Source: Kiritimatiellia bacterium (lineage in GTDB: Bacteria; Verrucomicrobiota; Kiritimatiellia; SLAD01). From it: 14,331 nucleotides of DNA. Within the stretch, counting starts at the first letter, position 1. Every line of letters starts with the position of its first letter. Shown here piece by piece: positions 2,735 to 14,331 of this stretch. The translations under genes and the position numbers were made by a program. A model generated the notes under the pieces. That model did no database searches. It had not been told where the DNA came from and saw nothing but the letters and a program-made list of their open reading frames with translations. The stretch covers positions 1-14,331 of the forward strand of contig SLLF01000231.1 in NCBI GenBank assembly GCA_007134175.1, in the 5' to 3' direction.

Positions 2735-5353
2735 CTATTCCAGAATAAACGTTCGGAAAAACGACGGGAATTTGCCGCCGAGGATCCCGTCTGTTATGCC
2801 CAGCCAGTAACTGGCGCGCCGGCCGTCATCCGAGTCGGGGATACAGACATTGAAGCCGAAGGCTTTCCCCCTGATCCCTTGCTGAAACGGCGGCATTGTT
2901 TCCCAGGGCAGGGCGATTTGGTAAAGGGTGATATGCGTATCTTCGTCCCGGGTAATAGAAAATAACGGGAGATCGGTTAGCTGGGTATCACGCATCCCGG
3001 CTTGCGGCGGGGCGATATGACAATAGATTTGCGGACCGCGTTGCGTCAGGGCGGCCGAGAATTCATAGTCGTCTTCGTGGTAGCCAATCCGCCCCGAGAA
3101 GCTGGGGTCGAGGGCGGTGTTGCCCGTATCAAATGCGAATTGGATGGAGTCGTGCTGCCAGATATTGGGGCCATGCCGGTTCTGCACATGCACATCATCG
3201 GTCACCGCCAGCACCATGTAGAAGTTCGATGCGTCCCAACGGAACCACAAATCGGCGCTTAGATCGTCGGGTCCGGTCCAGAGCCCGGCCGGCACCGCAT
3301 CGTCGGGGAAGATATGGTCGATGCTGTCCAGCGTAAGCGTAGGGGGCTTGTTTTGGACATCCACCAGGTGGGTGCCAGGCTGCAAACGCGGTACAAAGAC
3401 CGGATCGAACGCCTGCGCAAATTCAAATTCCGCACCGCCGTCCGAGGCAATGGTCACCTCTATATCCTGACGCGCAACGGAACGGACACCACCGGGAAGG
3501 ACATAATCCAGACGGGCTTCGCCCGCGGGCTCAATGGCGATGGTTTGCGTCTTCCCTTTGATCGTGGCAGAAGCCGTGACCGCGTCCTGCGTCATATTCC
3601 TCAGATGAAGGCGAACCGTATGGCCATCGGCAATGGATAGCTCGGCGGCCACCTCCGGCAGGGCAAACTGCGCCTGTTCCAGCAGTGCCACGACGTCCGT
3701 CGCCGGCAGATCAACAGGAACAAATAACGGCGCATCGGACAGGACCAACCGGTTTCGACCTACCGTCAGCGTGCCGGCTGCGCGTTCCATGATGTCGTAC
3801 ACCGGGGCCTCCCGGGTGAACTCAAAATCCAACGGCACAGGCGACTGACTGATACTCCATAACGTCAGGACCGATCCGCTGTCGCGCTCAAAGACGTAAA
3901 TCCAGATGTCGTCGTGAAGCTCGACGCGCTGGGCTGGCGCCTTTGTGTGTGCCAATAGGTGCGCAGTGGTGGCATAGGTGGCCACGGCCGGGCGGGGATG
4001 CAAGTTGAAGTTGACGTACTGTCCGCCCTCAATTTCCCGCTTCCAGAGTCCGTAGTCGTCGTTTCCGTGCCAGCGGCTGCCGGTCACGGTGAAGTACATA
4101 TACCGGTTCACCCCCATGGCCTTGGCGACAATCAGGTGCCGTGAAATGACCTTGGCCATATCCTTGGCGTAGGGACTATCCACGGGCAAGGCGGTCAGAA
4201 TGGCGTTGCCCTTTTCCGCAATCGCCAGCCGATCTTTACCGTACTTCTCCATGATCGACCATGCATCATCAAGAATGTCCGGGAAATTCCCCCGCTCCGG
4301 CCCTACGATGTGACGCCCCGGCCCAAAGATCTTCGGGTTGACATAGGAGTTGAAGGCCATGCCGTCCAGGTAATCCTCCACCCGGGGCCAAATCTCCCGC
4401 GCCACCTGATGGCGGGGAGTGCGGTTGGTGTCCTGGCCGCTTACGCCGACGCCGTAGAGGATAATCTCCGGGTTGGCCGCCCGGGCCGCGTTGGAGCCGG
4501 CCCGGACCAGGCCTACGTAGTGCTCGAGCACCCCCGCCCCGTGGTGCATGGCCAGATCGATTTCCTGGCCAAACTCCCACGTGTCAATTCGGCCCCGGAA
4601 ATGCGTCACCGCCTGCCCCATAAAATCTCCGAACGCGGTGAACATTCGTTCTGAATGCTCGGGCACAAGCCCTGCCAGCTCCTGGGCCTGCTGCTCCGCC
4701 GTGCCGCGATGGGAGGAAGGAATGGCTCGCCTCGGCGTAACCCATACCATGGCGACGGGTTGAATACCTTGCTCCGCAAAAACCTCATAGCGCCCATCCA
4801 GGCCGGAAAAATTGGTGGCTTCTCCCCTGTAGGTGGTAGATCCCTGGAAGGTCAGGGCCACGGAACCGACCCCGATATGGGCGGCCGGTCGGGCCATCCG
4901 GTCGGACATAATGATGCCGTTCAAACCAAAAAAGAAATCGTTCTTCTCGCGTGGCACGGTCACAATGAAACTTGAAACCCGCTTCTGCGCGGGACGGTCT
5001 CCCTCCCGCAACACCAGCTCCACGGCGTAGAAGCCGTTTAGCGACTGCCCCGGCAGCGACACGGTGTGCGCTTCTTTTTCCGTATTGGCAGGCACCGTTA
5101 CCGCAAATTGGCCCGTTGCCAATTCCAGGCCCTCGAAATCACGGACGGCATAGTGTAGTGCAATGGCAGCGGGTTGGTCGTCACGATTGGCCAGTTCCAC
5201 TGTGAATTCCGGCGATTGCGCTGGACGGACGACTCCTTCATTCAGCGCAGGGTACCAATCCAACAAGTGGATGGATTCTGCGGCACGCGTTGTCGGCAGC
5301 CATAGCGACAGGACGGCGAATAAGGAAAAGAAAACCTTAGGTGTGACATGCAT
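2735..5353 (-). CDS. Secreted GH-A-like glycoside hydrolase with C-terminal CBM9-like domain
   Basis: The 872-residue product is probably exported and acts on or binds a polysaccharide; the substrate is not known. Residues 1-24 are a signal peptide ending TRAA. About 28-135 look like a beta-sandwich. About 140-465 resemble a clan GH-A (beta/alpha)8 barrel: TWEFGQE at 258-264 lies where these families have W-E-x-x-N-E, giving Glu264 as candidate acid/base, and LAIAEKG at 376-382 gives Glu380 as candidate nucleophile. Gln263 replaces the usual Asn before the acid/base, which is unusual. Beta-rich segments cover about 475-660. The last 200 residues (TLDSIDHIF, ADLWFRWDASNFYMVLAVTDD, WQHDSIQFAFD) match the CBM9/DOMON-like sugar-binding fold. 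The start has a Shine-Dalgarno site 11 bases upstream. The gene is divergent from the transporter operon and shares its promoter region. The exact GH family could not be assigned. Confidence 0.72.
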   Translation of the reverse strand: MHVTPKVFFSLFAVLSLWLPTTRAAESIHLLDWYPALNEGVVRPAQSPEFTVELANRDDQPAAIALHYAVRDFEGLELATGQFAVTVPANTEKEAHTVSLPGQSLNGFYAVELVLREGDRPAQKRVSSFIVTVPREKNDFFFGLNGIIMSDRMARPAAHIGVGSVALTFQGSTTYRGEATNFSGLDGRYEVFAEQGIQPVAMVWVTPRRAIPSSHRGTAEQQAQELAGLVPEHSERMFTAFGDFMGQAVTHFRGRIDTWEFGQEIDLAMHHGAGVLEHYVGLVRAGSNAARAANPEIILYGVGVSGQDTNRTPRHQVAREIWPRVEDYLDGMAFNSYVNPKIFGPGRHIVGPERGNFPDILDDAWSIMEKYGKDRLAIAEKGNAILTALPVDSPYAKDMAKVISRHLIVAKAMGVNRYMYFTVTGSRWHGNDDYGLWKREIEGGQYVNFNLHPRPAVATYATTAHLLAHTKAPAQRVELHDDIWIYVFERDSGSVLTLWSISQSPVPLDFEFTREAPVYDIMERAAGTLTVGRNRLVLSDAPLFVPVDLPATDVVALLEQAQFALPEVAAELSIADGHTVRLHLRNMTQDAVTASATIKGKTQTIAIEPAGEARLDYVLPGGVRSVARQDIEVTIASDGGAEFEFAQAFDPVFVPRLQPGTHLVDVQNKPPTLTLDSIDHIFPDDAVPAGLWTGPDDLSADLWFRWDASNFYMVLAVTDDVHVQNRHGPNIWQHDSIQFAFDTGNTALDPSFSGRIGYHEDDYEFSAALTQRGPQIYCHIAPPQAGMRDTQLTDLPLFSITRDEDTHITLYQIALPWETMPPFQQGIRGKAFGFNVCIPDSDDGRRASYWLGITDGILGGKFPSFFRTFILE

Positions 5354-5503: not shown

Positions 5504-8068
5504 ATGCATATTCACTCCGAGAAGTGGGCCCCCGCCCTGACGGTGCGCTCGTGCCTGGCCGCTATATTCTGCATGGTCGTTACGGCGGCATTGATCAATT
5601 ATGTGCATGTGATGCTGGCGGCGCACTCGCCCGGTGAACATGCCTTGGTAATCCCGGGCCTCTGGGTTTTCGGAATCATCCTGGCGCTGTGCGGCGTCGT
5701 GCACCGGTGTTTCAAGATTCGCCTGCTGTCGCGGCCGGAATTGATGTGCGTGCTCTATATTATGCTGTTGAGCGCACCGATGATGTCGCAGGGCTTTTGG
5801 CACCGCGTGGTTTCCATCTCGTCAACGATCCCCCGGACGGGCGACTTCGCGCGCAGCGACGCCTTCAGCACCAAATTCTGGCCGGCGGGTGAAAACCTGC
5901 TGCGCGCCACCGGTTTCCAACCCTCCCCGCAGGTCGAGCTCACGGGGACCTTCCGCCACGAGGTCCGCGACCATACCGCTCGCGACGGTGAGGAAATCGT
6001 CGTGCTGGAAAACCACGACAAGGGCGCACGCTCCAGTATCCGTTTTTCCATCCCGGTCAAGACGGACGAAGTCGCGAACGGCGTCATGCCGGGCACGCCC
6101 TATCTCGTCAGCGTGTTGTTGCGGCCACGCGAATTGGCCGGCGAATCACATTACTTTGTAAACCTCCTGGCGGACGACGATGACTCGTTTAACGAGCTGG
6201 TCTTTTCCCGGTCGATCCGCTCGCCATCCGTCATTCACCCACAAGGGTTCCAGCGCGAGGGGGTGTATGGCGTGGTGGTGCCCGATGCCCGGGAACGGGT
6301 CATACTGGAGGTCGGGCTGGCGGGCGAGGGCGTCCTGCACGTGGCCGATCCGCAGTTTATCAGTGTGCTGGCTTTGGAACAAATTTATACCGGCCGCCAA
6401 GTAGTCTCGCGCGATGTCTACGAGGCATTGCCGGTTCACGCGCGCCACGGCTTGATCGTTAAGCCCGACCGGTGGCTAAGTTTTGCGGGATTGACTTATC
6501 TTTTGACCGGGCACATCCCCTGGTCGGCGTGGTGGCGGCCACTGGTGGCGTGGGGGGGCTTCCTGGGTCTGGTGATGAGCGGGACCTTGAGTTTGGCCGT
6601 GCTCATGCGCCGCAAATGGGTGGATAGCGAGCGGTTCGCCCTCCCGCTTACACGCATTCCGCTCATGTTGATCGGCGAACCGGGTGAACCGGACCGGGGT
6701 TATGCCACGCCGATCTGGCGCAATCGCATGATGTGGATCGGGTTCGTTGCCGGCCTGGTGTGGTGCCTGCTGCGTATCTTCAGCTTCTACAATCCGGCCA
6801 TCCCCGATCCGACCATCGAAGTGGACCTGGCACCCTATTTCGGCCCGGAATGGGGACGTACCTGGGAGATCACGTTCACCGTCATGGCGCTGTTCGTCAG
6901 CATCGCGATTTTCGTTGAGTTGAACATTCTCATCAGCGCCGTCATCGGCTTTTTGATGTTTCGCCTGCTCTTTTGGTACGGCTACGTCTCGGGCATGGAC
7001 GCGACGCAAGGCTTTCCGTTTGACCACGAACAGCAGATCGGGGCCTATGTGGCCTATGCCGCCTGCATGCTGATCTTTTCCCGCAAATACTTCCGGGAGG
7101 TGTTAAAGGAAGCGGTAACCCGCCAGACACCGGACCGGGGTGAGATTTTTTCCTACCGGACGGCTTTACTGCTGCTGGCCGGTGTTTTCGCCGGCTCGGC
7201 CTGGTGGGCCGGCTGGATCGGACTCTCCGTTAGCGGACTGCTGCTGTTCATGGGGTTTCTCCTCCTCATCGGTTTCGTCGCCATGCGTATTCGGGCGGAG
7301 TGTGGGGTGCCCTACGGCTATTTTACCCCGACCAATCTGGCACCGGTGATGTTGCTGGCGGGAGGCATACCGGTCTTCGGCCCGGACTTGGTGGTCTTTA
7401 CCTTTGTGGCCAGCTTCTTTGTGACCGTGGCCAACTTCATGATGATTCCGGGGACACAGCTCGAAGTGATGGAGCTGGGCCGCCGCTATGGCGTCCGCCC
7501 GCGACACATCCTCGGCCTGTGCCTGATCGCCATGGTGGGCGGCCTGCTGATTGGCGGCTGGTCCTTTTTATCCATGAGTTACGCGGTGGGCGGCAATACG
7601 ATGCAATATGATTGGCCCTATATCCCCAAGAACTACTACCTGCGCCCACTGTATCAGGAGTTGATTCAGGTGAGTCGCCTGGCGGAGGAGTCAGCGGCCG
7701 TAACAGCCACGGAAGAGGGCATCGCCCCCTCAACCTATGGCTATCTCTACGGTGCCGGCGTCACCGCGTTGCTGGCGATCGGCCGGCAGCTGTTTGCGGG
7801 CTTCTGGTTTCATCCCATCGGCTTTATCCTCGGCACCACACTCCATATGGGCATGGGCTGGATCTCGGTTTGGGGCAGCATCCTGACGGCCTGGTTTATC
7901 CGCTTGCTGGTGGTCAAGATCGGCGGTGCGGAAACGGTACGCACTAAATTGCTCCCCTTCTTTGCGGGCGTCTTCCTGGCCGCCGTGACGGCTACGCTGT
8001 TCAATGCCGTGCATGCGACCTGGCTGCGCGCCCAAGGGGTGGAATTAATTTTCTGGAAACTACTGTAA
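5504..8068 (+). CDS. DUF6785/DUF6784-type OPT-like integral membrane protein with inserted beta domain
   Basis: The 854 residues form a polytopic inner-membrane protein with roughly 14 hydrophobic segments. Segments at about 17-38, 49-68 and 79-98 are followed by a long hydrophilic loop (about 100-330). The remainder run from about 344 to 840. Family marks of the DUF6785/OPT-like group are GHIPWSAWWRPLVAW at 336-350, DSERFALPLTRIP at 374-386 and RIRAECGVPYG at 595-605. The family's transported substrate is unknown. The loop carries an apparent beta-rich domain (about 135-310) beyond what the family usually has here. An in-frame TAA lies directly before the ATG, so no upstream start is possible. 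There is no Shine-Dalgarno site, so the mRNA is probably leaderless. The gene heads an operon with the FtsX-type permease 5 bases downstream. Confidence 0.82.
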   Translation: MHIHSEKWAPALTVRSCLAAIFCMVVTAALINYVHVMLAAHSPGEHALVIPGLWVFGIILALCGVVHRCFKIRLLSRPELMCVLYIMLLSAPMMSQGFWHRVVSISSTIPRTGDFARSDAFSTKFWPAGENLLRATGFQPSPQVELTGTFRHEVRDHTARDGEEIVVLENHDKGARSSIRFSIPVKTDEVANGVMPGTPYLVSVLLRPRELAGESHYFVNLLADDDDSFNELVFSRSIRSPSVIHPQGFQREGVYGVVVPDARERVILEVGLAGEGVLHVADPQFISVLALEQIYTGRQVVSRDVYEALPVHARHGLIVKPDRWLSFAGLTYLLTGHIPWSAWWRPLVAWGGFLGLVMSGTLSLAVLMRRKWVDSERFALPLTRIPLMLIGEPGEPDRGYATPIWRNRMMWIGFVAGLVWCLLRIFSFYNPAIPDPTIEVDLAPYFGPEWGRTWEITFTVMALFVSIAIFVELNILISAVIGFLMFRLLFWYGYVSGMDATQGFPFDHEQQIGAYVAYAACMLIFSRKYFREVLKEAVTRQTPDRGEIFSYRTALLLLAGVFAGSAWWAGWIGLSVSGLLLFMGFLLLIGFVAMRIRAECGVPYGYFTPTNLAPVMLLAGGIPVFGPDLVVFTFVASFFVTVANFMMIPGTQLEVMELGRRYGVRPRHILGLCLIAMVGGLLIGGWSFLSMSYAVGGNTMQYDWPYIPKNYYLRPLYQELIQVSRLAEESAAVTATEEGIAPSTYGYLYGAGVTALLAIGRQLFAGFWFHPIGFILGTTLHMGMGWISVWGSILTAWFIRLLVVKIGGAETVRTKLLPFFAGVFLAAVTATLFNAVHATWLRAQGVELIFWKLL

Positions 8069-8073
8069 GGCCG

Positions 8074-11000
8074 ATGACAAGCACGAAGGAAACATTTATT
8101 GGAGCGCTGGTCTTTCTGGCCTGCTTGTTGGCCGGGGCCACCCTGTCCATTACGTTCTTTAGTCCGTCGCGCTTCGAGCAGGAGGCCCCCTGGCTGCGTG
8201 ACTACGATCCAGCCGCCCTACGGGAAGCCACGGCCCCGGATGCCGTGGAGTCGTTGCGGGCCGCCCTGGACGGGCTCGGCCCGCGCGTGCTGGGCCAACC
8301 CGCACTGGAGGCAGCCGGGGATTTCATCCGGGCCCATTATGAGGCGTATGGATTGGACATCTACGAGTTGCAGGGGGAAACCGCCGCCCTGGTTACCCGA
8401 CAGCGCTCCCTGGCTGGAGCCGATGGCACCCCCCTGGCCGGCGTGGAGATCTATCCCTTCCCGCCCAACTATCTACAGCCGGTGGCGACGCCGGCCACCG
8501 GCATCACCGGCACCCTGAAATTAATCGATGAACAAACGATTCGGGAAGCGTCCTCTTTCGCCGGCTATATCGGCGTGGTCCGCACCGACTCGATTCCGCA
8601 CCGCCAAGGGCTGGATTGGACGCGCTATGCGCAATTGGGACTTAAGGGGCTGATTCTGGTGGCGCCCGATGGTATCGATGACATGCCGTGGGTGACGATT
8701 CACGCCGAGGGGGCATTGCGCAACGCCCTGCCGGTCAACTTCCCGCGCCTGGCCGCCAACGCCGCGTTGCTGGATCATCTGGGCGCCGACGTGCGCCTGG
8801 ATGTCACGGTTCGCTTTGAGCGCGTGCCCACCCGCACCCTGATCGGTGTACAACGCGCCCCCGCGCCGGCCCGCGAGGCGATGGTTGTAAATGTGGCCTA
8901 TGACCAGTACGGCCTGCTGCCGGATTACGGCGTGTCGTCGCTGCAGACCTACCCGCTGGCGCTCCATCTGGCGCTGGTGCAAGGGCTGGCGCCCTACACG
9001 GATGAGTTGCAGCGCGATATTATATTTGTGGCTTCCAGCGCGCAGGGCGCGGGCTTTGCCTGCCTGGATCATCTGCTGCGTATGCTCGGCCCGGCCTTCG
9101 CGCAACAACCGGCCTCCGCCCGCATTGACGAACAGTTGCACCGACACCGCGCCCGAAGCGACACGATCCTGCGCATCCAGGCGGCGCTGGACCGTACCGC
9201 GCTGCTGGACGACGTGTCCGGTACACTGGCCTTGCACCGGGATCTCACCAGCACCGACCGCCGCTTTTTCGATCAGCAATTGAACTACACCCTTAACACC
9301 CTGGTTTTTGATCAGACGGAACCCCGACTGCAGGCGCGCATCACATACGAGCGGGGCGACCGCCTTGACCTGACCCATCCCGCCTATCTGGATTACCTGC
9401 GGGAACAGCGCATCTATGACGACATGGCCGCCGCGGCGGGTTTATCGCTGGGCCGGTTGATGGAGCGGATGGCCATCGGCGTGGAGCCGCCCACACGTTT
9501 TGTCGACCACTACCGGGTAGCCGACCGCTTCCAAGCGCGCTTGACCGAACTGCGGGCCTATCATCAGGCGCAGGAGCAGATCTGGTCGGAAGGCCGCGTA
9601 CTGCACGACCTCTTCAGCGCCTACCTCGACGTAACCGTTTTTCATCCGGCCTTTATCCCGTCCATAGACGATGCCGGCGACACCGTGCGCCGGTTAATCA
9701 GCTTTGTGCCGGGCGGTCCGGCCTTTGTGAACCGACGGGTATCCGACGCGATAGGCCCCGGCTTGATACAGTCGCTGGACAGCACGATTCAACGCGTCGG
9801 ACTGGGTGATCGCCTTGGCGTTCAATCACCCGTGGGCCAGTCTCCCGGTATCGTTTACCGGACCACACACCGGTTTCCCTCGGCCGCCGCTAACTGGACC
9901 GGCCTGGGGTATCGCGCTTTTTCACTCATTAACACGGACCGCGCGACCGCCTACCGTGCGCTAACCCTCCCGCCCGACCCGCAGCGCCCGCCGCATGCCG
10001 CGCAGATGGCCACTTCGCTCGACTTTGCCGGCCAGTTCCTCCTGGCCTTTGCGCGCGGCGCCGGCCGGTTGGCGGTTCCCCCGAAGCTCAGTATCCAGCA
10101 GTTTAGCGGCAACGTATACGTCTCCGACGTGGGTCGGTCGCTGATTCCCAACTACCCGCTCGCCAACGCGCTGATTAAACCCATGGCCCGGGAGGATCTA
10201 TTTGGGAGCCGCGCGGGACGTATCGAAACCCTGGTTCACTTCACTGATCCCTACGGCCGCTACGAACTGCCCGACACCTCGTCGTTCATGTTGCCGCGCC
10301 GTTACAATCTACAGGTGGCCCGCTACGACGAACAGGGGCAACTGACCCATGTCAAAGACGAAAGCCGCACCACCCAGAACCTCTACCGCTCCGTCGATCT
10401 CGACCCGCACAACAGGGATTTTCGGCATGTCAATCTGGTGGCGTTCCGGGCCACGCCCGTGGCGGTGCTCGACCTGATCAACCCCCAGACCCTGCGGCCT
10501 TTCACCTCTGTTTCCTTGCTGCGGCAAGGCAGCCTGACCGGCTTTGCGCGGCACAACACCGTGGAAACCGAGGAGGGTCAAGTCACCTTCATCCCGCCGG
10601 AATCCTATTTTATAGCCACTTTCCGGGCCGGCACGCCTGACAACGAACTGGTGCAAACGGTCCGCTCCTTTATGGGCGGCGACCCCGTGGCGCGGGCGAT
10701 GACGGGTAGTGCCATCAGCGGCGCGGGCTACCTGGCCCAGGACCACCCGATCCTGCTGGATGCCACCTACGAGCAAGCGCGCTCCATGAATCGGCTGAAC
10801 AACACCCGGATCACCCTGCAACAGGCACGCGGCCTGACCGACCGGCATACGGTTGAATTTCACGAACAAAGCGCTGAACGGCTACGGGCCGTGGACGATT
10901 CGGCCCCTTCACAGAGCTGGCTGGAGCGACTCCTTGCGGCGCGCGACTCGCTCACCTATTCCATCATCGTCCACCCGATCCTGCGCGGTAATATCAACGA

Positions 11001-13155
11001 AGCCGTCATCAGCATTCTCTGGTACATGGGCCTGCTGGTTCCCTTCATGTTTTTCTTCGAGAAGCTGGCATTCGGATTCTCCGATATCCGCAAACAGTTG
11101 GCGGCGCAGGCGGTTATCTTTCTCGTGGTTTTCGTCCTGTTGCGCCTGTTGCATCCCGCTTTCGAAATGATCCGCTCCTCGCTGATGATCCTGCTCGGGT
11201 TTGTGATCCTCCTGATTTCCCTCGGCATCACGGCGCTTTTTGCCGGCAAGTTCCACGAGAACCTGGAGGAAATAAAACAGCGGCGCGGCCAGGTCACGGC
11301 CGCCGAAGTCAATACCATGGGCGTGATCGCTACGGCGTTCATGCTTGGACTCAATAATATGCACCGCCGCAAGGTGCGTACGGGCCTGACCTGCGCCACG
11401 CTGGTGCTGATTACGTTTGCCATGATCTGCTTTACGTCCATCTACAGCGATTTCGAGGACACGGAAATCACGCTGGGCCGCGCCAGCTACCAAGGTCTCT
11501 TGATCAAGAACGAGCAGTTCGGGCCCATCAGCGCCACCGAACTGTTCGCGCTCGAAGAGCGCTACGGCCACCGGTTCGCCATCGCCCCCCGTTTTATGTA
11601 CGTGGGCCAGATCACGGGGGAACGGGAGCTGGTCAATCCCGACCTGGAAATCATGCATGTCACGGATGGTGCGCGCACGCGCGTGCTGCCGTTCGGCTCC
11701 ATCATTCGCCTGGCACCGCATGAACCACTACGCCAGACGCTCCGTTTCGTCAGCGAACCGTACTGGTTCGACCCTGCCGAGTGGGCCGACCCCGCCGCGC
11801 CGCTAGCGGTCATTATCCCCGCCAGCATGGCCGAGCGACTCGGCATCCGCATCGCCGCCGTCAATGACGGCGGGGCACTGGTCCGCATCAACGGCAGCCC
11901 TTTTCTTGTACGGGGCGTGTTCGACGAGGAATCCTACTACGCCATGCACGACCTTGATGGTCGCCCGATCCTGCCCTTTGATGCTGTCGGGTTGCGCGAT
12001 GTCCAATTGGTGCCGGGCAGCACGCGCGAGCTGCTCGCCGATGAGGACGGCTACCTAATGGAGCCTGGCGATATCGTGCTGGCCCCGTCCATCAGCCTTG
12101 GCCTGGACGTCAGCGACGCCAATGACCGGTTGGTCTCGATCACGATCGACCTGGGCGGGCTCGCCTTTCGCGAGGCGCGGCAAGAGGTGGTCCAGTTTCT
12201 CGAACAGCGCGCCCGGCCCGCATTCTACGGCCTCGACAACACCGCCTACCGCGGCAGCCGCATGCGCGTCTCCAGCTTTGCCGGCCTGGTGGACCTCGTC
12301 ATTCCGCTCATCATCGCCGCCTTGACGGTGTTGAACACGATGAAGGGATCGGTGTACGAGCGGCGCGACGAAATCTACGTCTACAACGCCGTCGGGATCG
12401 CCCCCAAATTCATATTCTTCATGTTCTTCGCCGAGGCGTTTGTCTATGCCGTTGTCGGCTCGGTGCTGGGGTACCTGCTCAGCCAAGGCACCGGCACGAT
12501 CCTGACCGCGCTCGATTTAACCGGTGGCCTGAACATGACCTTCGCCTCGGTCAACAGCATCTACGCATCGCTGGCCGTCGTGGCGGCGGTCTTCATCTCG
12601 ACCTATTTCCCGGCTAAGTCAGCGGTGGAGATCGCGGCCCCCGCCGAGGAGTCGGGCTGGGATATGCCGGAACCGGAGGGCGACACGCTGACCTTTGATC
12701 TGCCTTTCACCTTCGACCAACGCGAACGCATCGCGGTGCTGGCCTTCTTCCATCGCCACTTGCTGGATCACGGCGAAGGCGGCGCAGGCGGTTTCGCCGC
12801 TGGCGTACCCCGTTTTCAACTGCGGGGCGATGCCGGCGGCGGCGCGAAAGGGGTTGTGCCTGCCCTTGCGGCGATGATCTGGTTGCAACCATACGATTTG
12901 GGGGTATCGCAGCAGCTCTGCATCGAAACCCCGCTGGACGATGAAACCGGCGAGTTTATCGCCTGTCTGCGCTTGACGCGCGTGTCCGGTACACAGGAAG
13001 CGTGGCGTCGCGTCAATCACCGCTTCATGGCCAGCATCCGGCGCCAATTTTTACATTGGCGGGCGGTCGCACCCGCTCAGAAACAGGAGCTGTTCGCGGA
13101 AGCCCGCGCACAGATCGAGGCCACCGGACCCCAGGAGCACACCCCGCATGGCTAG
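8074..13155 (+). CDS. Giant FtsX/MacB-type permease fused to an inactive M28-peptidase-like extracytoplasmic domain
   Basis: This 1693-residue inner-membrane protein is far larger than ordinary FtsX or MacB permeases (about 300-650). A signal anchor lies at 8-30. Residues about 55-350 resemble M28 peptidases (DGLGPRVLGQPALEAA, a PA-like insert near 140-240, then the core). However, the HxD zinc motif is AYD (275-277), the Glu-Glu motif is AQ (323-324), and the usual DD-containing loop is absent, so catalysis is unlikely. About 350-960 is a large extracytoplasmic region with a helical part, then beta domains (GRYELP near 728). Three membrane segments (about 977-997, 1008-1026, 1036-1057) precede the FtsX core: NNMHRRKVRTGLT before a segment at about 1105-1124, an extracytoplasmic domain to about 1400, and three segments at about 1403-1422, 1447-1470 and 1492-1512. 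A cytoplasmic tail of about 170 residues ends it. Such permeases normally work with an ABC ATPase, and none is in the window. The gene overlaps the next one by 8 bases. Confidence 0.83.
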   Translation: MTSTKETFIGALVFLACLLAGATLSITFFSPSRFEQEAPWLRDYDPAALREATAPDAVESLRAALDGLGPRVLGQPALEAAGDFIRAHYEAYGLDIYELQGETAALVTRQRSLAGADGTPLAGVEIYPFPPNYLQPVATPATGITGTLKLIDEQTIREASSFAGYIGVVRTDSIPHRQGLDWTRYAQLGLKGLILVAPDGIDDMPWVTIHAEGALRNALPVNFPRLAANAALLDHLGADVRLDVTVRFERVPTRTLIGVQRAPAPAREAMVVNVAYDQYGLLPDYGVSSLQTYPLALHLALVQGLAPYTDELQRDIIFVASSAQGAGFACLDHLLRMLGPAFAQQPASARIDEQLHRHRARSDTILRIQAALDRTALLDDVSGTLALHRDLTSTDRRFFDQQLNYTLNTLVFDQTEPRLQARITYERGDRLDLTHPAYLDYLREQRIYDDMAAAAGLSLGRLMERMAIGVEPPTRFVDHYRVADRFQARLTELRAYHQAQEQIWSEGRVLHDLFSAYLDVTVFHPAFIPSIDDAGDTVRRLISFVPGGPAFVNRRVSDAIGPGLIQSLDSTIQRVGLGDRLGVQSPVGQSPGIVYRTTHRFPSAAANWTGLGYRAFSLINTDRATAYRALTLPPDPQRPPHAAQMATSLDFAGQFLLAFARGAGRLAVPPKLSIQQFSGNVYVSDVGRSLIPNYPLANALIKPMAREDLFGSRAGRIETLVHFTDPYGRYELPDTSSFMLPRRYNLQVARYDEQGQLTHVKDESRTTQNLYRSVDLDPHNRDFRHVNLVAFRATPVAVLDLINPQTLRPFTSVSLLRQGSLTGFARHNTVETEEGQVTFIPPESYFIATFRAGTPDNELVQTVRSFMGGDPVARAMTGSAISGAGYLAQDHPILLDATYEQARSMNRLNNTRITLQQARGLTDRHTVEFHEQSAERLRAVDDSAPSQSWLERLLAARDSLTYSIIVHPILRGNINEAVISILWYMGLLVPFMFFFEKLAFGFSDIRKQLAAQAVIFLVVFVLLRLLHPAFEMIRSSLMILLGFVILLISLGITALFAGKFHENLEEIKQRRGQVTAAEVNTMGVIATAFMLGLNNMHRRKVRTGLTCATLVLITFAMICFTSIYSDFEDTEITLGRASYQGLLIKNEQFGPISATELFALEERYGHRFAIAPRFMYVGQITGERELVNPDLEIMHVTDGARTRVLPFGSIIRLAPHEPLRQTLRFVSEPYWFDPAEWADPAAPLAVIIPASMAERLGIRIAAVNDGGALVRINGSPFLVRGVFDEESYYAMHDLDGRPILPFDAVGLRDVQLVPGSTRELLADEDGYLMEPGDIVLAPSISLGLDVSDANDRLVSITIDLGGLAFREARQEVVQFLEQRARPAFYGLDNTAYRGSRMRVSSFAGLVDLVIPLIIAALTVLNTMKGSVYERRDEIYVYNAVGIAPKFIFFMFFAEAFVYAVVGSVLGYLLSQGTGTILTALDLTGGLNMTFASVNSIYASLAVVAAVFISTYFPAKSAVEIAAPAEESGWDMPEPEGDTLTFDLPFTFDQRERIAVLAFFHRHLLDHGEGGAGGFAAGVPRFQLRGDAGGGAKGVVPALAAMIWLQPYDLGVSQQLCIETPLDDETGEFIACLRLTRVSGTQEAWRRVNHRFMASIRRQFLHWRAVAPAQKQELFAEARAQIEATGPQEHTPHG
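13133..13137 (+). promoter_or_regulatory. Shine-Dalgarno site of the downstream OPT-like gene
   Basis: AGGAG lies 10 bases before the ATG at 13148, inside the last codons of the permease gene. With the 8-base overlap of the two genes it suggests translational coupling and supports 13148 as the start. Confidence 0.65.
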
Positions 13156-14331
13156 AGTCGACAAAGAACTGGAACAGTATCGCAACCTGCTTGAGATGCC
13201 GACCGAGTACCAGGACGGCTTCGGCTGGTCGACCGTACTCGGCATCATCTTCTGCGGCTTGGTTATGATGCCCGGCTCCATCTATCTCGGCCTGATGACC
13301 GGCGGCGATATGACGTCGGCGGCCACCTGGGTAACCGTGATCTTGTTCAGCCAAGTCGCCAAACGCGCACTGAAACCGCTTTCCAAACAGAACCTGGTCA
13401 CGCTGCTTTATGCCAGCCGCTTCATGATGACCGGCTACCTGCTGATGCCCGGCGGCCCGATCGGGCCGTTGATCTACCGCGCGTTCCTCATCAACAGCAA
13501 CGCCGTGCGCGAGCAGGGCTTGACCGGCGCCTTCCCCCACTGGTGGGTCCCGCCGCACGACAGCCTGGCCATCGTCGAGCGCAACCTGCTCCACATCGAC
13601 TGGCTGATCCCGATCGGACTGGTGGCCTTTTTGATGATCATTGCCGGCATCAAGAAGTACACGATCGGCTATTTCTTCTATCGCTTGACCTCCGACATCG
13701 AGCGCCTGCCCTTCCCGCTCGCGCCGATCCAGGCACAGGGCGCAATGGCCATGGCGGAAGAGGACGGCCCGAAGAAAAAGAAATCGTTCCTCAAGCGGGT
13801 CGCGACCAGCGCACCGGCAGAGGAGGAACCGGCCGGTCAAAAGACCTTCTCGCGCTGGCGCCTCTTTTCGCTGGGCGCCGTGCTCGGTTGCTCGTTCGGC
13901 ATTATTCTGGTCGGGGTTCCGGCCATCACCGGCCTATTCCTTGAGGAACCGGTGTTCATCATTCCCCAGCCTTTCGTCGACCTGACCAACGTGACGGAAG
14001 GCTTTCTACCCGCCGCCCCGACCGGCGCCACGATCGATCTCGGGATTATCCTCATCGGCTTTGTCATCCCGTTCTGGGCGGTGATCGGTACGTTCCTTGC
14101 CGTGATGGTCACCTTTCTTGTCAACCCGATCCTGCAGCACGCGGGGGTCCTGACCACCTGGCAGCCCGGGATGGATACCATCAACACCCAGTTTTCCAAT
14201 CATGTGGACTTCTGGCTCAGCTTCAATGTGGGCACGGCGCTGGGCATCGCCATCGTGTCCATCTTTTCGGTTGTCCGCGCCTTTGTGCGCATCGGCCGCG
14301 AGCGCCGCCAAAAACAGGCCGCCGCCCCGCG
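13148..14331 (+). CDS. OPT-like (oligopeptide transporter superfamily) membrane protein, 3' end outside window
   Basis: The reading frame opens at ATG 13148, overlaps the permease stop (ATGGCTAG), and stays open to the window edge: 394 codons with no stop. The product is a polytopic membrane protein. Residues 28-50 contain MMPGSIYLGLMTGGDMTSAA, matching the G-x-Y-L-G-L-x-T-G motif of OPT transporters. Further segments lie at about 56-72, 82-105, 152-170, 238-262, 298-330 and 358-380. DIERLPFPLAPIQAQG (182-197) parallels DSERFALPLTRIP in the operon's first gene, so the two are distant relatives. A charged loop with a KKKKSF run (about 208-235) separates two membrane blocks. OPT proteins import peptides or metal chelates using the proton gradient, but these bacterial relatives have no assigned substrate. 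The start is supported by AGGAG 10 bases upstream. The C-terminal half is missing. Confidence 0.8.
   Translation, partial: MARVDKELEQYRNLLEMPTEYQDGFGWSTVLGIIFCGLVMMPGSIYLGLMTGGDMTSAATWVTVILFSQVAKRALKPLSKQNLVTLLYASRFMMTGYLLMPGGPIGPLIYRAFLINSNAVREQGLTGAFPHWWVPPHDSLAIVERNLLHIDWLIPIGLVAFLMIIAGIKKYTIGYFFYRLTSDIERLPFPLAPIQAQGAMAMAEEDGPKKKKSFLKRVATSAPAEEEPAGQKTFSRWRLFSLGAVLGCSFGIILVGVPAITGLFLEEPVFIIPQPFVDLTNVTEGFLPAAPTGATIDLGIILIGFVIPFWAVIGTFLAVMVTFLVNPILQHAGVLTTWQPGMDTINTQFSNHVDFWLSFNVGTALGIAIVSIFSVVRAFVRIGRERRQKQAAAP

Follow-up and report, generated by a model that had tools for sequence, protein, structure and literature searches.

A conserved bacterial gene module with predicted OPT-fold carriers and a giant FtsX-type permease

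The 14,331-nucleotide window analysed here is the whole of contig SLLF01000231.1 (G000:C60) from a Kiritimatiellia bacterium whose 2.35-Mb draft genome, in 383 contigs, is 76% complete, and it ends in three same-strand open frames which encode a DUF6785/DUF6784 protein, a giant FtsX-type permease and, from 13148 to the contig end, a protein of the OPT family. They open a conserved membrane module which, as judged from sequence comparison, consists of two carriers of the OPT fold, known from peptide and metal-chelate uptake, and a Type VII ATP-binding cassette (ABC) machine of the MacB/LolCDE/FtsEX kind (the giant, a small FtsX protein and one or two ATPases), often together with a PqqD-domain protein and often with a partner of about 300 residues. 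The operon very likely continues past the window, with three more genes following the C-terminal piece of the OPT gene on another contig. We tentatively propose, at a probability of roughly 40% for the whole account, that the carriers and the FtsX machine work as one uptake system. The first-pass annotation of the window had placed the three genes correctly, including the gap of 5 bases between genes 1 and 2 (8069-8073) and the overlap of 8 bases between genes 2 and 3 (13148-13155).

In a set of 38 genomes that takes in the window's own, 21 have a strong giant match (E below 1e-40), 21 have the OPT gene and 22 the DUF6785 gene. A larger survey of 387 genomes sampled evenly across the phylum, with giants counted over 150 bits, resulted in 70 genomes with OPT, 71 with DUF6785 and 72 with the giant; all three were present in 67, any of them in 75 and none in 312, and these counts are low for crowded genomes since two candidates per genome were scored for the giant and three for each of the others. 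Fisher tests of co-occurrence gave p values from 8e-67 to 1e-71 across the 387 genomes, uncorrected for kinship. The giant was present in 69 of the 70 OPT-bearing genomes, the exception being an OPT fragment. A giant also lay 5' on the same strand and within 1 kb of 89 of the 106 OPT matches, with a median gap of 59 bases between match ends; on inspection nine of the other 17 adjoin a giant as well, one begins at a contig edge and one (L163) truly stands without a giant, while the remaining six, left out of this inspection, are fragments or split pieces, the one on contig C133 (see below) among them. The earlier expectation that the three genes would be neighbours in relatives, and that OPT-like genes would not occur free of the permease, is thus borne out, apart from one DUF6785 of another subtype which is taken up with the points against our proposal.

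Pairwise distances between family members correlated at 0.94 for OPT and giant (n=78), 0.92 for OPT and DUF6785 (n=49) and 0.95 for giant and DUF6785 (n=46), and the maximum reached in 999 permutations was 0.201. The recurrent neighbourhood across many genomes and these correlations rule out a chance adjacency of the three genes. On the whole, the gene set appears to have been inherited as one unit.

The same neighbourhood was recovered in a scan of named genomes covering the 80 top-ranked OPT relatives out of at least 551. Around these 80 loci we found the giant (whole or cut) in 76, an ATPase in 69, a small FtsX gene in 47, DUF6785 in 39 and PqqD in 34, and at the 35 loci where the OPT gene has over 8.5 kb ahead of it and over 2.5 kb behind it the giant was present in 34, an ATPase in 33 (two or more in 28), the small FtsX gene in 31, PqqD in 24 and DUF6785 in 22. 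Each of the four genomes whose locus lacked a giant (L132, L133, L142 and L143) holds one elsewhere, and when seven other loci are added, both giant and OPT were found in 11 of 11 genomes. The record titles of the 80 loci name Kiritimatiellae, Lentisphaerae, Verrucomicrobia, Planctomycetota, Chitinivibrionales and Omnitrophota, along with Desulfovibrio-, Desulfobulbus- and Desulfacinum-type names; most of the records are metagenome bins, and Desulfacinum hydrothermale DSM 13146 is a named strain with the module. At two Desulfobacterota-type loci (L146:2-1209 and L147:242-1363) the module stands beside a GT28-type glycosyltransferase gene, in one case also with a DUF2334/polysaccharide deacetylase-like gene.

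The full-length third protein of relatives has about 670 residues, and the fragment in the window ends at residue 394. Searched alone, this fragment has no significant Pfam match and the piece on C133 does not match PF03169; that family was matched by 8 of the 16 members of OPT alignment A1 at E values of 0.01 or lower, the best being 7.2e-11, and the L048 member reaching 37.1 bits against a cut-off of 25.8. Profile searches of the PDB gave no match for alignment A1 and none that was convincing for alignment A2. By sequence, the third gene of the window is an OPT gene cut at the contig end. Hydropathy of the fragment shows five membrane segments and loops, and around residues 206-231 it has a charged loop insertion, rich in lysine and glutamate, which exceeds in length that of the 15 other members of the alignment.

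The likely continuation is contig C133 (3,110 bases, locus L152), whose minus strand carries, in order, an OPT C-terminal piece, a small FtsX gene, an ABC ATPase gene and a gene for a PqqD-domain protein. On the OPT model the window piece ends at position 365 and the C133 piece spans 413-660; because the two halves are complementary and the gene order matches that of relatives, we infer that C133 continues the window. Nine relatives were compared, chosen because their giant is close to that of the window, because DUF6785 immediately precedes the giant or, in one case (G217), as an apparent exception, and downstream of OPT all nine have FtsX and then an ATPase, with PqqD in five and a second ATPase in eight. 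The first-pass annotation had predicted a matching ABC ATPase just past the right edge; the operon does hold one, on C133 as in the nine relatives, only it is not the next gene, the small FtsX gene lying between.

The giant carries an FtsX domain (Pfam, residues 1410-1517, E 1.3e-12), hydropathy segments at 1105-1123, 1402-1420, 1447-1465 and 1490-1508, a membrane block at residues 977-1055, and outer parts at about residues 27-976 and 1124-1401. Its family profile matches, in its two parts, the families named in Table 1, and both the profile match and a fold search give the outer domain an M28 fold. At the M28 active-site columns, which we placed from family-profile alignments and the M28 motif, 45 giants keep the histidine in 4 cases, the base glutamate in 2 and the ligand glutamate in 0, and the window giant lacks all three. 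The outer domain thus has an M28 fold with its zinc ligands lost and is apparently inactive, and an active peptidase is rejected on the near-complete loss of ligand and catalytic residues. A special kinship to nicastrin is likewise rejected, as active aminopeptidases match the giant profile better (best 1.7e-16, against 1.6e-9 for nicastrin, 1.6e-6 for nicalin and 3e-5 for the transferrin receptor) and nicastrin is not among the 50 matches listed in the fold search. Frame errors that split or fuse the gene are also rejected, the frames being long in the window and in 19 relatives.

The C-terminal domain of the giant had no Pfam match in a scan of the whole protein, and the last 181 residues of the window giant, searched alone against PADLOC, had no match either. 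The membrane half of the giant does match PADLOC family PDLC01991 (3.1e-38 for the window; 1.2e-54 over residues 961-1494 at L048), the best stretches ending at model positions 560-656 of 810; the rest of that model is presumably its CARF part. The last 179 residues of the L048 giant gave a 33-residue match only (0.0015, at model 529-561). Around residues 960-1560 giants resemble the PADLOC families CARF_m8 LolE_TM and CARF beta-galactosidase LolE_TM, which suggests that giant FtsX proteins form a broader superfamily whose outer domains are exchangeable.

Gene 1 matches DUF6785 (5.4e-68) and DUF6784 (1.8e-11) in Pfam, and at E up to 1 these were its only matches, PF03169 not among them. A fold search found that the DUF6785 protein shares the fold of the OPT carrier YS1 of barley (7wst). 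When the OPT and DUF6785 alignments were compared as profiles, only their N-terminal parts matched, and weakly (probability 64); the likeness is settled by the fold search, which also upholds the first-pass description of gene 1 as OPT-like. That annotation further credited all three proteins with big extracytoplasmic parts; this holds for the giant and, at low confidence, for the DUF6785 protein (outer insert at about residues 110-331), and a big outer part is not clear from the hydropathy of the OPT piece. A search of the open-access literature found no paper naming DUF6785. A second kind of DUF6785, near the Pfam profile, stands directly before a divergent giant at L160:13599-19565 and L159:4489-10965, where the giant frames (1240 and 1384 residues) are both incomplete and no OPT gene was seen after them.

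The ATPase on C133 carries all motifs intact and is closest to the LolD and MacB models, scoring 226.6 bits with LolD against a cut-off of 307.75. Across 122 aligned module ATPases, Walker A and the SGG signature are intact in every one, and for Walker B and the H-loop a single cut or gapped case is the only exception. A cruder pattern search, which required L or V before SGG, found all four motifs in 64 of 141 frames; in the alignment the residue before SGG is mostly M or L. The small FtsX protein scored 48.8 of the 362.45 bits needed for the LolCE model and the giant 10.8, both below the cut-off. Both the giant and the small FtsX protein carry an FtsX domain, and hydropathy gives each of them four membrane segments, the first two separated by an outer loop; the giant is probably one half of a permease pair with the small FtsX protein.

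The PqqD-domain protein on C133 matches PF05402 at 31.1 bits (cut-off 23.4) and has no NCBIfam match, whereas the one at L048 has a weak likeness, below cut-offs, to the ScmD and PqqD models. The recurrent partner of about 300 residues (L048:12387-13274, minus strand; L146:12103-12996; L053:193-1653) matched neither Pfam nor NCBIfam in those copies that were scanned, and it is fused to PqqD in two loci looked at. Neither the carriers nor PqqD nor this partner matched anything in a PADLOC scan, where the only parts of the module to match were the giant's membrane half, the small FtsX protein and the generic ATPase; a known defence system is rejected on that ground.

Table 1. Features of the module in the window and on contig C133 (window positions unless a contig is named)
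Feature	Position	Strand	Remarks
DUF6785/DUF6784 membrane protein, 854 aa	5504..8068	+	OPT fold; inserted segment at ~residues 110-331, where the model is unreliable
Giant FtsX-type permease, 1693 aa	8074..13155	+	family profile: M28 aminopeptidases (N-terminal part); MacB, LolC, YtrF (C-terminal part)
Extracytoplasmic M28-peptidase-like domain of giant	8206..10083	+	~residues 45-670; long helical insertion; zinc ligands lost
FtsX unit of giant	11386..12624	+	PF02687 at 1410-1517; four hydrophobic segments, ~280-residue outer loop between first two
Conserved C-terminal domain of giant, ~164 residues	12661..13152	+	predicted cytoplasmic; conserved columns in alignment A3
OPT-family gene, 5' part (394 of ~670 residues)	13148..14329	+	relatives' length; family PF03169 matches
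OPT C-terminal piece	contig G000:C133, locus L152, 2332-3108	minus	complementary model positions

Elsewhere in the window, a dihydrodipicolinate synthase gene and then a gene for a DUF3108 protein (125-2028) lie upstream on the strand of the module. A gene whose product of 872 residues has a CBM9-like carbohydrate-binding domain (2735-5353, minus strand) runs divergently from the operon, 150 bases from its start. Scans of the window for tRNA genes and, at gathering score, for Rfam families gave no match.

How such a set might work can be sketched from known parts. In passages of PMC5985334, FtsX-type ABC proteins are described as working outside the membrane, and in the MacB type ATP hydrolysis moves the outer domains with the substrate not passed through. 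The parts of PMC12646458 that treat YbbAP suggest that it extracts hydrophobic compounds and presents substrates to TesA, and barley YS1 is portrayed, in sections of PMC9691689, as a dimeric, proton-driven symporter of an iron chelate. Putting MacB mechanics, YbbAP presentation and YS1 symport together, giant and small FtsX protein would form a permease pair, and on the outer side of the membrane the dead-peptidase arm would capture a ligand, either peptide-like or a metal chelate; ATP binding and hydrolysis would then move the FtsX pair and the outer domain by mechanotransmission, the ABC part itself passing no ligand. That movement could deliver the ligand to the adjoining OPT-fold pair, or open it, and the pair would carry the ligand inward with the proton gradient, where the PqqD-domain protein might receive or recognise a peptide on the inner side. 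In its most specific form, a hybrid transporter in which the FtsX machine physically gates or loads the proton-driven pair through the dead M28 arm, so that a single uptake event would draw on both ATP and the proton gradient, we consider the idea unlikely.

Several observations weigh against a joint uptake system. OPT carriers are already driven by the proton gradient, so that a need for ATP is not obvious. One genome which is 99% complete (G076) has a DUF6785 of another subtype without the permease, and at L142 and L163 OPT is not beside the giant, though each genome has one. One or two of the three genes are missing from 8 of the 75 genomes, although in two of these the gene is actually present and cut by a contig end (DUF6785 of G217, OPT of G202). 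L140 has giant and OPT with no ATPase or small FtsX gene within reach, and gene order differs between lineages. Of the 24 loci compared, no more than 16 have their nearest relatives of OPT and of giant at one and the same locus; for loci from multi-copy genomes the figure is 6 of 11. The neighbouring genes, few of them annotated, gave no substrate. There is no direct sign of contact between carrier and permease, for which neither a complex model nor a coupled-residue analysis was made; the co-inheritance is consistent with coupling, and with the first-pass idea that the permease energises or gates the carriers or brings them a ligand, and is no proof of it.

The main rival holds that the two halves merely share a pathway, with the carriers importing alone and the FtsX machine doing a separate envelope job, such as sensing or release, for the same compound or state. 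The variable gene order and the genome of L142, in which carriers and giant lie on different contigs, speak for such a division of labour, as do the diverse, stand-alone roles of Type VII ABC systems set out in portions of PMC5985334; the placing of OPT directly after the giant in most matches, at a short median gap, and the OPT-giant distance correlation of 0.94 count against it, and we hold it to be somewhat unlikely. Peptide export or maturation, where PqqD would recognise a ribosomal peptide, the FtsX machine would expel it from the periplasm and the OPT-fold proteins would carry this peptide or its metal complex across the membrane, could draw on the PqqD domain itself, the faint ScmD/PqqD likeness at L048 and the fusions of PqqD to the 300-residue partner. 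Among the flanks of 100 loci and the window, however, no maturation enzyme stood out (clusters were not annotated singly and small precursors were not searched), the recurrent flank clusters being the 300-residue partner and apparent shadow frames; PqqD, moreover, is present in only 24 of the 35 loci with room for it, and the scheme seems to us improbable.

Extraction in the manner of LolCDE or YbbAP, in which giant and small FtsX protein would pull a lipid or lipoprotein from the membrane and the OPT-fold proteins would hold or flip a lipid and not a soluble solute, is a quite improbable reading: the ATPase is closest to LolD and YbbAP is suggested, in parts of PMC12646458, to extract hydrophobic compounds for its partner, yet ATPase and small FtsX protein fall far below the LolD and LolCE cut-offs, and the N-terminal outer domain of the giant has an M28 fold. 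Most improbable of all is a signalling or defence machine related to CARF_m8 LolE_TM, whose permease half would send an inner signal outward or the reverse; it can appeal to the PDLC01991 match of the giant's membrane half, but the sensor part that names the family was not seen, since the matching stretches stop short of the model's end and the C-terminal 181 residues of the window giant are without a match; nor does anything in PADLOC match the carriers, PqqD or the 300-residue protein.

Secondary carriers are as a rule regarded as a class apart from Type VII ABC machines, and a conserved set that joins both under record titles of several phyla makes it a testable question whether the mechanical work of an FtsX pair loads or gates a secondary carrier. 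If the parts do cooperate, this would be an unfamiliar way of powering or gating uptake. The module also offers a likely functional frame for two Pfam families without a role, DUF6785 and DUF6784, and provides a case of a bacterial permease to which a dead M28 domain is fused.

A search of the open-access literature found no description joining OPT carriers, an FtsX-type ABC machine and PqqD; one survey of transport proteins mentions the OPT family, FtsX and ABC transporters, and PqqD is absent from it. The module resembles several known systems in part. Nicastrin, nicalin and the transferrin receptor also use an M28 fold outside the membrane; these are inactive M28-fold receptors that are not known to be fused to a permease. 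The third gene belongs to the OPT family (YS1, 7wst; PF03169) by profile and DUF6785 by fold, whereas, unlike the family at large, the surveyed OPT genes sit in genomes with an FtsX giant and DUF6785 has no PF03169 match. With CARF_m8 LolE_TM (PDLC01991, PDLC01990) the module shares a membrane half over some 490-630 model positions and long proteins, one kind being named as an enzyme-like fusion, but the last part of the model is unmatched, the M28-like outer part has no PADLOC match and the operon contains carriers. MacAB-TolC, LolCDE and FtsEX are alike in the FtsX domain with four segments and an outer loop and in a LolD/MacB-like ATPase with intact motifs; the module, in contrast, misses the curated MacB, LolCE, LolD and FtsX cut-offs, on which a standard LolCDE or MacAB is rejected, and it has a giant outer domain, while no MacA- or TolC-type gene was noticed among its recurrent neighbours, where no model search was aimed at them. 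YbbAP-TesA, the Type VII ABC system of E. coli with a hydrolase partner, likewise combines an FtsX-type permease, an ATPase and an outer protein of enzyme fold, for which PMC12646458 proposes substrate presentation; in the module, by contrast, permease and enzyme fold form one protein and the fold is without catalytic ligands, while the set further includes a small second permease and two carriers of the OPT fold.

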